Shown here piece by piece: positions 25,973 to 29,052 of a stretch of DNA of 34,941 nt. Source of the stretch: Acidimicrobiaceae bacterium (lineage in GTDB: Bacteria; Actinomycetota; Acidimicrobiia; Acidimicrobiales; MedAcidi-G1); contig PBDJ01000018.1 of assembly GCA_002717365.1 (NCBI GenBank), positions 10,211-45,151 on the forward strand, written 5' to 3'. The stretch's first letter is position 1. Each line of letters starts with the position of its first letter. The notes below the pieces were generated by a model. That model did not search any database. It saw nothing but the letters and a program-made list of their open reading frames with translations, and had not been told where the DNA came from. A program made the position numbers and the translations under genes.

Positions 25973-26848
25973 GTGCTGAAGCTTGTCCTACCCAAGGGTT
26001 CCCTAGAGAAGTCGACACTTGAACTGTTTGAGGGTGCCGACCTGGGGGTAGTTCGCAGTTCGTCAGTCGACTACCGGGCGACGATCGACGATCCCCGAGT
26101 CGACGAGGTGCGTATCCTGCGTCCTCAGGAAATTCCCACCTACGTGGCTGACGGACTGTTTGACCTGGGAATCACCGGCCGGGACTGGATCCAGGAAACG
26201 GGCAGCGACGTAGTCTCGCTCGGCGAACTGCACTACTCAAAGGCCACGGCCCGACCGGTACAGATCGTGGTCGCCGTCCCCGGCGACTCGCCGGTGGAGT
26301 CGGTAGCCGACCTGTCGTCAGGGGTCCGGGTGTCCAGCGAGTACCCAGAGTTGACCCGCCGGTTCTTCGCCGAGCAGGGCGTAGAGGCCGATATACGGCT
26401 CTCCTATGGGGCCACCGAGGCCAAGGTGCCCGACATCGTGGACGTAGTGGTCGACATCACCGAGACCGGCCGAGCCCTGCGAGCTGCCGGCTTGAAGGTC
26501 ATCGACACCATCCTGACCAGTTTCACCGAGTTGGTGGCCAACCCCGAGGCCTACGCCAACCCGGACAAACGCCACGCCATGGAGCAACTCCACAGACTTC
26601 TACAGGGCACCTTGGAAGCCCGAGGGAAGGTCCTAGTGAAGATGAACGTGGTGGGTGACCACCTCGACGCGGTGATTGGTCTCATCCCGTCGATGAAGTC
26701 ACCGACGGTGAACGAGTTGTTTGGGAGTTCGGGCTTTGCTGTGGAGACCGTGGTTGCCAAATCGGAGATAAACGTACTGATTCCTGCCCTACGCGATGCC
26801 GGGGCCACCGACATCATCGAACTGCCGATCTCCAAAATTGTTCACTGA
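25973..26848 (+). CDS. hisG: ATP phosphoribosyltransferase, long form
   Basis: HisG condenses ATP with PRPP, the first and feedback-controlled step of histidine synthesis. The 291-residue protein is the long form. The catalytic domains open with L-K-L-V-L-P-K-G-S-L and include G-I-T-G-R-D-W near 62-68 and the PRPP-binding run D-I-V-D-V-V-V-D-I-T-E-T-G near 151-163. The last 75-80 residues form the ACT-like regulatory domain that binds histidine (M-N-V-V-G-D-H-L onward), so no HisZ partner is needed. It starts at a GTG behind its own leaderless hexamer. hisE, which often precedes hisG in actinobacteria, is absent here. Confidence 0.96.
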   Translation: MLKLVLPKGSLEKSTLELFEGADLGVVRSSSVDYRATIDDPRVDEVRILRPQEIPTYVADGLFDLGITGRDWIQETGSDVVSLGELHYSKATARPVQIVVAVPGDSPVESVADLSSGVRVSSEYPELTRRFFAEQGVEADIRLSYGATEAKVPDIVDVVVDITETGRALRAAGLKVIDTILTSFTELVANPEAYANPDKRHAMEQLHRLLQGTLEARGKVLVKMNVVGDHLDAVIGLIPSMKSPTVNELFGSSGFAVETVVAKSEINVLIPALRDAGATDIIELPISKIVH

Positions 26849-26870: not shown

Positions 26871-27326
26871 TTAGTCGCCGGCCGCCTCTCCAGTCTCGTT
26901 TTCGGCCTCGTCCCCGTCGTCGGCTGCCGCCTCCCTCATCGCCTTCTCGACGGCCACATAAGCCAGACGAATCTGGTGTAGGGCATCGCGCATTGTCGCT
27001 TCGGCTTCCCCTAAGCGGCCGGGAAGCGTGTCGACCACGGCGGCCAGAGCGTCGATAGCCACCGAAGCCTCGGACAAGTTGGGTGGCTGCTGGGACAGGT
27101 GGATGGCCGCCAGCTCGTAGAAACCCATCAGGTGGTTGGCCACCACAACAGAGGCCGGGGCCGAGGCCAACTGCTCCTGGACGGCGGCCATTTCCCGGGC
27201 CATGGCCTCGGCCTTCTCACGGTCCTCCGGCGACAGCGCCTCCAATGAGGGGTCGACCGGCGGGTCCTGTGGGGAACTGGAGGGGTCGACGGGATGTTCC
27301 CCGCCAGGGGTCCAGAGACTGCTCAT
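26871..27326 (-). CDS. DUF1844 domain protein
   Basis: The 151-residue protein is of unknown function. A proline- and acid-rich N-terminal region of about 45 residues is followed by a helical segment with A-S-V-V-V-A-N-H-L-M-G-F-Y-E-L-A-A near 57-73, then I-H-L-S-Q-Q-P-P-N-L and A-I-D-A-L-A-A-V-V-D-T-L, ending in L-H-Q-I-R-L-A-Y and an acidic tail. This matches my recollection of the DUF1844 family, whose streptomycete member also lies beside infC. No signal peptide or membrane segment is evident. ATG 27326 is preferred because GAGGAA sits 5 nt upstream; the open frame extends 17 codons further. Facing away from infC suggests a translation-related role, but that is inference. Confidence 0.75.
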   Translation of the reverse strand: MSSLWTPGGEHPVDPSSSPQDPPVDPSLEALSPEDREKAEAMAREMAAVQEQLASAPASVVVANHLMGFYELAAIHLSQQPPNLSEASVAIDALAAVVDTLPGRLGEAEATMRDALHQIRLAYVAVEKAMREAAADDGDEAENETGEAAGD

Positions 27327-27626
27327 CGGGATTCCTCGCCTAGTAGTCGGACTCCCCAGAGGGAGCGGAATACCCACCGGGCCGGCGGCTGGTGCCGGAA
27401 CGATGCGGGACCGGTAGCCTACGGGCTACAACTGAAAGGAAAGCGGGGTTCTCCCCACCCGACACGCGTCCAGCGGGTTCGGGTCTTCTTCTCGTCGGAT
27501 CTACGACGTCCATGGCGTACCGCCGTGGGACGTCGGGGTCGCCTCGGCGGGGGTCGGCTTTCTGGCGCCCGCCGTTTCCGCGTTCCGGGGCCGTTTCCCG
27601 GTCGGGGTGCGGAGGGTGCCGTCCCA
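27327..27626. other. Divergent intergenic region and infC leader
   Basis: About 350 bp separate the DUF1844 start from the infC start. It holds the DUF1844 ribosome-binding site, the infC promoter hexamer at 27415 and a small GGGG-TTCT-CCCC hairpin at 27445-27456. A 52-codon open frame runs from ATG 27512 to TGA 27668, in the infC frame; it is arginine-rich and I see no reason to call it a gene. The GC-rich section 27530-27620 could fold extensively, but I recognise no named RNA family in it. Confidence 0.5.
27414..27429 (+). promoter_or_regulatory. Candidate infC promoter with overlapping palindrome
   Basis: TAGCCT at 27415-27420 would start transcription near 27427, giving an infC leader of about 250 nt. 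It lies in a perfect inverted repeat, GTAGCC at 27414-27419 and GGCTAC at 27424-27429 around TACG, that covers the -10 and probable start point, an operator-like position. Six-base arms can arise by chance. Confidence 0.4.
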
Positions 27627-27680
27627 ATGTTCAATCACGAGGAGAGAGCCTGCGTGACACACAGGAGTGACGACCGATAG
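27627..27680 (+). CDS. Candidate 17-codon leader peptide coupled to infC
   Basis: An ATG at 27627, with GGAGG 11 nt upstream, opens 17 codons (M-F-N-H-E-E-R-A-C-V-T-H-R-S-D-D-R). They end in a TAG that overlaps the AUA start of infC as ATAG, the same kind of junction as the GTGA overlaps elsewhere. The infC ribosome-binding site AGGAG at 27663-27667 lies inside it. Translation of this ORF would deliver ribosomes onto the weak AUA start. No homology is known to me; the evidence is arrangement only. Confidence 0.4.
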   Translation: MFNHEERACVTHRSDDR

Positions 27681-28363
27681 CTGCCCCAACCAACCAGGAA
27701 CCACGGATCAACGACCGCATCCGGGCCGGACAGGTCCGCCTCGTCTCGCCAGAGGGTGAGCAAATGGGGATCCAGTCCCTACCGGATGCCCTGTCGGCGG
27801 CCCAAGAGATGGGCCTCGACCTAGTGGAAGTGGCCGACAAGGCTGATCCACCGGTCTGCCGGATCATGGACTATGGGAAGTTCAAGTACGAACAGTCCCA
27901 GCGGGCCAAGGAATCACGCCGGAAGTCGACCCACGTTCTGGTCAAGGAGATGAAGTACCGGCCGAAGATCGGTCCCGGGGACTTCGCCACCAAGACCCGC
28001 AAGGTGGAAGCGTTTCTGGGCGATGGCAGCAAGGTCAAGGTCACGATCATGTTCCGCGGCCGGGAGATGCAGCACCCCCAACTGGGGCGCCGCATCCTGG
28101 ACAACGTCGCCGAGGCGGTGTCCCACGTCGGTCGGGTAGAGGTGTTTCCTAAGCAGGAGGGCCGCAACATGTCCATGGTGCTGGTTCCCGGCCAGGCCAC
28201 CCGCAGGCAGCGGGAGGCGGCGGCCGAGCGTCAGGAGGCCCTGGCATCGGACATCACTACCGAGGAAACAGTTACCGAGGAAACAGTCGCCGAGGAAACA
28301 GTCACCGAGGAAACAGTCACCGAGGACGACGAAGCAGTAACGGACCCCAACCCGGCTACCTGA
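27677..28363 (+). CDS. infC: Translation initiation factor IF-3 (AUA start)
   Basis: IF-3 keeps 30S subunits free and proofreads start codons. The 228-residue protein begins with the family N-terminus E-P-R-I-N-D-R-I-R-A-G-Q-V-R-L, which lies upstream of the first in-frame ATG (27764). An in-frame TGA at 27668-27670 leaves nine codons of room before it, and AUA at 27677 is the best start: AGGAG at 27663-27667 is 9 nt upstream. IF-3 genes characteristically start with AUU, AUC or AUA, so that IF-3 represses itself. The C-domain motifs K-E-M-K-Y-R-P-K-I and R-G-R-E-M are intact. A C-terminal extension of about 30 residues is built on a five-residue E-E-T-V-T repeat. First gene of infC-rpmI-rplT. 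Confidence 0.95.
   Translation: MAAPTNQEPRINDRIRAGQVRLVSPEGEQMGIQSLPDALSAAQEMGLDLVEVADKADPPVCRIMDYGKFKYEQSQRAKESRRKSTHVLVKEMKYRPKIGPGDFATKTRKVEAFLGDGSKVKVTIMFRGREMQHPQLGRRILDNVAEAVSHVGRVEVFPKQEGRNMSMVLVPGQATRRQREAAAERQEALASDITTEETVTEETVAEETVTEETVTEDDEAVTDPNPAT
28259..28318 (+). repeat. 15-bp tandem repeat in the 3' end of infC
   Basis: Four complete 15-bp units of the form ACCGAGGAAACAGTC (28259, 28274, 28289, 28304) with one or two changes among them, then a partial unit. They encode E-E-T-V-(T/A) five-residue repeats in the acidic tail of IF-3. The unit is a multiple of three, so copy-number change would keep the frame. Confidence 0.9.
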
Positions 28364-28411: not shown

Positions 28412-28588
28412 ATGCCCAAGATGAAGACCCACCGGGGGATGGCCAAGCGCATCAAGGTGACCGGCACCGGTCGCCTGAAGCGGGGCACCTATGTGAAGAA
28501 GGCGGTGAAGCTGAAGCGGCGACGCGGTCGCCAGCTCGACGTGGATCCGACCAACGCCTCGACCGTTCGGAAGCAACTCGGAATCTGA
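28412..28588 (+). CDS. rpmI: Ribosomal protein L35 (bL35), short
   Basis: L35 is a small basic protein of the large ribosomal subunit. The 58-residue product starts with the invariant M-P-K-M-K-T-H-R-G-M-A-K-R and continues V-T-G-T-G-R-L-K-R, ending in K-Q-L-G-I. It is a few residues shorter than the usual 64 or so: the middle segment that normally contains a histidine and L-L-x-x-K-S is replaced by Y-V-K-K-A-V-K-L-K-R-R-R. ATG 28412 is fixed by the family N-terminus; GGAG at 28399-28402 lies 9 nt upstream. It sits 48 nt after infC and 104 nt before rplT. Confidence 0.95.
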   Translation: MPKMKTHRGMAKRIKVTGTGRLKRGTYVKKAVKLKRRRGRQLDVDPTNASTVRKQLGI

Positions 28589-28670: not shown

Positions 28671-28692
28671 CGACGCCTACAAGGAGATCGTG

Positions 28693-29052
28693 ATGGCCAG
28701 GGTCAAGCGAGCCGTCCAGAACAAGAAGAAGCACAAGGCCGTCCTAGAGCAAGCCAAGGGGTACTACGGCGACAAGAGCCGGACCTTCCGTGCCGCCAAC
28801 GAGCAGGTGATGCACTCAGGCAACTACGCCTTCCGTGATCGCCGCGCCCGCAAGGGGCAGTTCCGCCGCCTCTGGATTCAGCGCATCAACGCGGCCTGTC
28901 GCCAGCACGGCACCAGCTACAGCGTGTTTATCGCCGGCCTGAAGCGGGCTGGCGTCGAAGTGGACCGCAAGGTCCTGGCCGACCTGGCGGTGGCCGAACC
29001 GGCGGCTTTTGCCGCCCTGGTCGAGGTAGCCACGACCGCCGACGCGGCCTGA
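28693..29052 (+). CDS. rplT: Ribosomal protein L20 (bL20)
   Basis: L20 is needed for early 50S assembly and represses its own operon in several bacteria. The 119-residue protein has the expected start M-A-R-V-K-R-A-V, the basic N-terminal extension [14 protein letters not shown], the [20 protein letters not shown] run near 47-65 and Y-S-x-F-I-A-G-L. ATG 28693 is preferred over GTG 28690 because AAGGAG at 28681-28686 is then 6 nt away and the protein begins as usual. The last 20 residues are alanine-rich. Confidence 0.97.

Follow-up and report, generated by a model that had tools for sequence, protein, structure and literature searches.

A bad start codon is the textbook means by which infC, the gene for translation initiation factor IF3, is autoregulated. 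In the present window, by which we mean the whole 34,941-nucleotide stretch of Acidimicrobiales DNA that was analysed, the start codon of infC is overlapped by the stop codon of a short leader ORF, and the locus raises the question of what such a leader could contribute to the control of IF3. The gene and its surroundings comprise the following features:

25973-26848: hisG, in the window near infC
27663..27667, plus strand: Shine-Dalgarno (SD) sequence of infC, AGGAG, inside the leader minigene described below, 9 nt upstream of AUA, -8.9 kcal/mol
27677..27679, plus strand: AUA start codon of infC, read from the sequence and present in 44 of 44 readable family members
27677..28363, plus strand: infC, translation initiation factor IF3 (Pfam IF3_N 107.7 bits, IF3_C 108.5 bits)
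28412..28588, plus strand: rpmI, ribosomal protein L35 (Pfam Ribosomal_L35p)
28690..29052, plus strand: rplT, ribosomal protein L20, exact start approximate (Pfam Ribosomal_L20)

The infC frame is closed upstream by a TGA at 27668-27670. Between this stop and the conserved residues EPRIND lie nine codons (CGA CCG ATA GCT GCC CCA ACC AAC CAG), none of which is NTG, and ATA 27677 is the sole plausible infC start ahead of the conserved EPRINDRIR. An earlier note on this DNA had placed the start at this AUA, nine codons before the conserved N-terminus and 9 nt behind AGGAG, and the sequence bears this out; the window infC, with both IF3_N and IF3_C, is an IF3 gene with an AUN start other than AUG. 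The same note had taken AUA to be a rare infC start. This does not apply to the lineage, where AUA occurs throughout the readable family and in 104 of 156 dereplicated leaders and is the normal predicted infC start. The window's genome, which is 78% complete, contains one infC match. In the window infC is followed by rpmI, rplT and a SpoU-type methylase gene, and a divergent gene near infC has a DUF1844-like match below the Pfam cut-off (23.1 bits vs 27). No sigma-70-like site was found in 27300-27720. The C-terminal end of IF3 is an acidic repetitive tail (TEETVTEETVAEETVTEETVTEDD...) that stems from a short DNA repeat (window 28250-28360, plus strand).

Upstream of AUA, the earlier note had described a 17-codon ORF from ATG 27627 to an overlapping TAG. 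Three features were distinguished in this region:

27627..27680, plus strand: 17-codon ORF, ATG form, in the minigene's frame; a real ORF, its ATG present in 2 of 15 genus members
27639..27644, plus strand: SD of the minigene, GAGGAG, 9 nt before GTG 27654; duplex with the anti-SD -8.7 kcal/mol
27654..27680, plus strand: infC leader minigene, 8 codons, GTG ACA CAC AGG AGT GAC GAC CGA TAG, the stop sharing bases with the start of infC in ATAG

The ORF from ATG 27627 to TAG 27680 translates as MFNHEERACVTHRSDDR up to the stop and the minigene as VTHRSDDR; the stop/start overlap ATAG lies at 27677-27680. In the window, ATG 27627 also has an SD-like stretch (-10.0 kcal/mol vs -8.7 for GTG 27654). 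Family leaders were aligned by the IF3 N-terminus, with 48 members searched and 44 readable. The minigene from GTG 27654, with GAGGAG 9 nt ahead of it, is kept in 15 of 15 readable genus members. With either GTG or ATG as its start it is present in 42 of the 44 family members; L112 and L113 show no recognisable minigene start. In six genus members (L088, L090-L092, L099, L102) codon 8 is TAA, which gives a 7-codon ORF whose stop overlaps the A of AUA. The layout proposed in the earlier note, a short leader ORF coupled to an AUA-started infC via ATAG, is therefore strongly supported by conservation in relatives. The ORF, its TAG and the ATAG overlap stand; the ATG 27627 start and the length of 17 codons do not. 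With its ATG in so few genus members, the 17-codon ORF was rejected as the functional unit: it is local, and the conserved unit inside it is the predicted 8-codon minigene starting at GTG 27654.

Across 20 distinct family sequences, the invariant letters of the minigene are the AGG AG of the infC SD, the A before the stop and the TAG; the start is GTG or ATG in 19, and the remaining positions vary. As an upstream ORF the minigene is conserved, and it brings initiation signals separate from those of infC. As its letters vary beyond the infC SD, the A and the TAG, we think that what counts is the act of translating it and not its peptide. An amino-acid-sensing leader peptide was rejected, since no codons are conserved beyond the SD constraint and the peptides vary widely across the order.

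The wider survey comprised 327 loci and yielded 317 usable leaders (those with N or with less than 60 nt upstream were excluded), which fell into 156 clusters at 90% identity. Out of 289 order genomes with a match, 30 loci, 100 places chosen among the matches listed, 30 further genomes and four more regions were read, and two wider searches contributed the best 30 loci each; the order-level sample leans to closer relatives. An infC match was absent from 2 of 48 family genomes (G034, G009), 9 of 298 order genomes, 2 of 60 class genomes and the region G214 (L331). The match in G042 was cut at a contig end and left out, and L126 was without a leader. Some loci came from the same genome present twice (e.g. 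L001 and L082) and were removed by deduplication and clustering. At 9 of the 327 loci no ATN or NTG start was found in the allowed range (L053, L126, L301, L311, L315, L319, L320, L321, L327). In L053, L301, L311, L315 and L319, the codons from the in-frame stop to the conserved N-terminus of infC offer no such start and read TGC GGG GTC/GTA ... after GGAGGTGATGC, which may mean a still rarer start or another arrangement. In L320, L321 and L327 (Actinobacteriota), infC may start at GTA, within GAGGAGTG(G/A)TGC(A/G)CAGTAGC.

An SD-led ATG, GTG or TTG placed 5-9 codons upstream in the coupling frame was found in 63 of the 104 AUA representatives. The same rule returned 0, 4, 0, 0 and 3 hits at five other, mock-stop positions in the AUA representatives and no hit in 49 AUC representatives; 200 dinucleotide shuffles averaged 4.0 hits and never exceeded 14. 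When counting was confined to order-level representatives with real stops no more than 6 nt from the start, 63 AUA leaders had a minigene and 28 of the 91 had none, while AUC leaders had none in 25 (Fisher p = 6e-11); as this p value ignores shared ancestry and AUC is unable to form a +1 stop, the mock-stop figure is the fairer comparison. G follows AUA in 99 of 104 AUA representatives and makes UAG automatic. The +1 stop is therefore not independent evidence; the evidence is the in-frame start together with its SD. Outside the order, one of 35 leaders among the best loci listed carries a qualifying ORF (L309), probably by chance, and none of 35 does so among L045-L081, mostly Streptomyces and other Actinomycetes.

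The 147 distinct minigene leaders of the order start with GTG (55), TTG (47) or ATG (45) and have 6 (59), 7 (40), 8 (40), 5 (5), 11 (2) or 9 (1) codons. Their stop is TAG at +1 (ATAG) in 138, TAA at +1 (ATAA) in 1 and TAA at -2 (TAATA) in 5; in two further leaders it abuts the infC start, and one has TGA at +5. Taken together, 146 of the 147 have a stop in overlap or contact with the infC start. By eye, the minigene start may be near-cognate in L202 (ATC) and L284 (ATT), where relatives have NTG. On these counts the layout is real and beyond chance, a predicted gene of 5-8 codons before infC in a large, mostly uncultured group.

The distribution of the minigene was followed on an IF3 tree, a quick one of 165 columns in which 65 of 153 inner branches are open and the clades were drawn by eye, so that their limits are approximate. 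A minigene clade of 62 representatives (support 93) holds 57 AUA leaders with a minigene, 3 AUA leaders without a recognised one, 1 GTG leader with and 1 AUC leader without. A related clade of 44 representatives (21 AUA and 23 AUC, support 88) has no minigene by the SD rule. Another eight representatives with a minigene fall elsewhere on the tree (L271, L286, L293; L020, L214; L163, L164, L182). The AUA-plus-minigene label changes 10 times on the tree vs a mean of 50 for shuffled labels. Independent pairs for AUA vs minigene are few, with 3 on supported branches and 9 on the best tree (sign test, median p = 1), and the association, as far as the tree indicates, is largely that of one clade.

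An open NTG 5-8 codons upstream, with the SD not required, occurs in the +1 frame in 55 of 62 members of the minigene clade, vs none in frame 0 and 2 in frame +2; the corresponding figures for the related clade are 3, 2 and 8 of 44. Of the two controls, frame +2 is the fair one; in frame 0 a TGA often falls within the SD, which biases that count. Seven of the 62 fall outside the simple 5-8-codon rule. Relatives that have infC without an overlapping ORF, which the earlier note had named as evidence against its reading, do exist, as seen in the related clade with its 3 of 44 open NTG in the coupling frame. Since this clade keeps infC, the minigene device is clade-specific and not universal.

Pairing with the anti-SD at -40 to -22, a zone comparison in which start codons were not selected for, averages -9.5 kcal/mol in the minigene clade vs -4.8 in the related clade (p = 4.8e-11), and in the control zone at -65 to -47 the clades are alike (p = 0.56). 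Pairing in the infC SD zone is -9.6 kcal/mol in the minigene clade, weaker than the -11.5 of the related clade (p = 0.0002); the SD is fair in most minigene leaders and weaker than -4 kcal/mol in 3 of 64. The anti-SD tail was assumed, since the 16S tail pattern was found in 7 of 41 genomes and was absent from the window's incomplete genome. For the infC start codon the tree gives 11 changes over a length of 8.75 within the related clade and 2 over 10.66 within the minigene clade (binomial p = 0.004). The two changes are to GTG in the genus g76 and to AUC in L174, the sole AUC of the minigene clade, where the overlap is lost.

In all four genomes of g76 (L147, L180, L328, L329), no ATA is present in the infC frame at the infC start, and the start appears to be GTG. 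The minigene of this genus reads ATG CGG AAC GAG CGT CG(A/T), followed by TAG or TAA directly before GTG, and stands in the infC frame. Because g76 kept the abutment after losing AUA, and start changes are few in the minigene clade, stop-start adjacency looks selected in this clade. Comparison across genomes demonstrates the predicted minigene, its SD, its frame and its spread, as well as stop-start adjacency through a change of start codon. This genus appears to have exchanged AUA for the canonical GTG while keeping the minigene, and would be a naturally occurring example of an IF3 gene with an ordinary start.

We lean towards the reading that infC is made largely by termination-reinitiation from the minigene and that IF3 damps both reinitiation and the use of AUA. 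Ribosomes would load on the minigene at its strong SD and an ordinary start codon (AUG, GUG or UUG), translate it as far as the UAG and terminate there; this stop has two bases in common with the infC AUA, a geometry corresponding to the common AUGA overlap with AUA for AUG. The terminating ribosome or its 30S subunit would be held by the AGGAG inside the minigene and would restart on AUA after a 2-nt forward shift, as at AUGA (counted from the A of AUA, the last sense codon sits at -2 to 0). A minigene of 6-8 codons places its start 17-23 nt from that of infC, a spacing for which two initiating ribosomes are too large; both starts would hardly be occupied together, so that de novo initiation on AUA would compete with minigene traffic. 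IF3 would affect the restart in two ways, by discriminating against AUA and by discouraging reinitiation, and high IF3 would lead to less IF3 synthesis. AUA is the only AUN codon besides AUG able to place a stop in the coupling frame. Where a minigene exists, AUA may be kept over AUC or AUU for supplying this stop (UAG or UAA). AUA is common without a minigene, in 21 of 44 members of the related clade and in 28 of 91 order-level representatives, and such a lock-in therefore does not explain the origin of AUA. Translation of the minigene, dependence of infC on it and feedback of IF3 on it are what we infer from this layout. Direct initiation at infC is possible, given its fair SD.

The earlier note had suggested that coupling could either override or tune the discrimination of IF3 against its own start. 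Tuning fits better, because excess IF3 lowers reinitiation in E. coli and coupling could add a second IF3-sensitive step. In E. coli, reinitiation was reported to fall almost threefold when IF3 was raised, de novo initiation at AUG staying unchanged, and the inhibition of reinitiation was smaller when an SD was present (PMC2268962). As the window has an infC SD, IF3 would be expected to act on AUA pairing and perhaps more weakly on reinitiation. One study, as related in a review, had IF3 promoting coupling by 70S scanning (PMC12548453), which counts against the model.

The minigene might also be translated and repress infC: a ribosome initiating on it, or pausing at its AGG Arg codon, would hide the infC SD, and infC would be initiated de novo when the minigene is idle. 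Consistent with this, the infC SD lies inside the minigene and the starts are mostly 17-23 nt apart, and in S. aureus translation of the 8-aa leader rbfL, which overlaps the rbf SD, represses rbf (PMC13009471). Hiding the SD needs no stop at the start, yet nearly every minigene leader has one overlapping or touching it (though AUA plus G gives that alone). Moreover, the adjacency outlived the loss of AUA in g76, the infC SD zone is weaker and not stronger in the minigene clade, and the AGG is imposed by the SD and hence no evidence of pausing. We consider repression of this kind unlikely. It is improbable that the upstream SD-like patch and NTG serve only as a standby site that loads 30S subunits and yields no peptide. 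A second anti-SD match 22-40 nt upstream does mark the minigene clade; such a site predicts no reading frame, however, and the open starts of this clade are concentrated in the +1 frame, with minigene start codons and stop codons interchanging synonymously.

Classical coupling often acts by unmasking (PMC6728339), and translation of the minigene could accordingly open a hairpin in which the infC SD is buried. Folding of the window segment is no better than that of its shuffles (z = 0.19), and the same holds for four other leaders (z 1.02, 0.58, 2.02, -0.29); a row for L083 came from a stretch that is not leader. Bases of the infC SD zone are, on average, a little more likely to be unpaired in the minigene clade than in the related clade (0.45 vs 0.37). 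By these fold scores and unpaired probabilities, structured RNA masking the infC SD was rejected, and unmasking is very improbable; as no RNA structure is supported near the start, termination-reinitiation is preferred. We give even less credence to chance, that is, to an open frame reaching an automatic UAG with ease in a GC-rich leader before an ordinary IF3-sensitive AUA start: AUA plus G always makes UAG and the 17-codon form is unconserved, but the shuffles, the other frames, the AUC leaders, the SD zone and the conservation contradict it. Least probable of all is a frameshift fusion, in which infC would really begin at the minigene start, strong and SD-led where the start codon of infC itself is weak, and a shift at CGA UAG would lead into the infC frame, since no shift could join the in-frame g76 minigene to infC across a UAG or UAA directly before GTG, the arrangement on which we rejected this reading, and the related clade starts with AUA or AUC after a single SD, mostly with no upstream start in frame.

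A separate element lies further upstream in the leader:

27543..27576, plus strand: leader hairpin with T-rich tail, stem about 27547-27556 / 27563-27572

Hairpins of the type GGCGGRYGUYGG-CUUUC-CRRCRYCCGCC with a T-rich tail occur in the infC leaders of many Acidimicrobiales, at a median of about 76 nt upstream of infC in both clades. A hairpin with a T tail was found in 47 of 117 leaders vs 2-11 in ten shuffles; the window copy has one G-G mismatch and fails this rule. Compensatory changes were present in 9 of 10 pairs among 41 sequences chosen by the loop motif (41 of 117 had it), several of which look like false picks with pairs broken or paired otherwise. The hairpin could be a candidate attenuator. 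Rfam 15 gave no match at gathering threshold over the window, nor any up to E = 1 over 27330-27720, and a known Rfam element in the infC leader was rejected on this basis.

Autoregulation of IF3 via a non-canonical start has been described for AUU in E. coli and AUC in Streptomyces infC (PMC5472188), and infC of S. aureus has an AUA start at which retapamulin-enriched ribosomes were found (PMC13009471). The present infC shares with these a non-canonical AUN start of the gene for IF3 itself, a basis for feedback; unlike in these, an SD-led minigene overlaps the AUA here, so that reinitiation can come in as a further step. The available parts of these two papers mention no leader minigene before infC in E. 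coli, Streptomyces or S. aureus. Stop-start coupling is widespread (Huber et al. 2019, PMC6728339). The AUAG and UAAUA junctions resemble the AUGA and UGAUG overlaps of that study, respectively, also with the SD inside the upstream ORF; they differ in that the upstream ORF is a minigene of 5-8 codons, the restart codon is not AUG, and the restarted gene encodes a factor that disfavours such starts. Short coupled leader ORFs are known as well, among them the third leader ORF of E. coli iraD, whose stop overlaps the main start and which controls via coupling (Park et al. 2017, PMC5574718); there, in contrast to the infC minigene, the regulator is CsrA acting at the leader-ORF SD, and the iraD product is no translation factor. 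In the rbfL-rbf pair of S. aureus, an 8-codon GUG leader ORF likewise overlaps the SD of the next gene (PMC13009471). This leader differs in that it senses arginine and represses. Its stop codon falls within the rbf SD and, in the part of the paper at hand, is not described as reaching the rbf start. Ribosome delivery by an upstream ORF has been proposed in general terms (PMC12548453). The accessible portions of PMC10158994, PMC1805508, PMC9845219, PMC4128351 and PMC9031893 contain nothing bearing on a minigene, and a minigene coupled to infC was found in none of the open-access matches listed. Non-canonical infC autoregulation, stop-start coupling and short coupled leader ORFs were known; on the open-access literature covered, the minigene joined to the infC start appears to be new.

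Gene-calling programs tuned to NTG starts and longer ORFs would probably overlook both the AUA start and the minigene. The junctions AUAG, AUAA, UAAUA, UAG-GUG and UAA-GUG provide natural variants for testing inhibition vs promotion of reinitiation by IF3, and the minigene-free AUA and AUC leaders are further variants for this question. The layout also offers a reason for AUA, and not AUC or AUU, where a minigene exists. A whole clade appears to tie the bad start of infC to a minigene by stop-start overlap. If so, the disputed role of IF3 in reinitiation would be part of its own control circuit. We suggest tentatively that IF3 in this branch of the Acidimicrobiales may be run by a reinitiation sensor and not by start-codon discrimination alone: the minigene would feed AUA, AUA would be held as the coupling stop, and IF3 would be read as the chance of restart, which in g76, with its GUG start, would leave reinitiation as the only step sensed.
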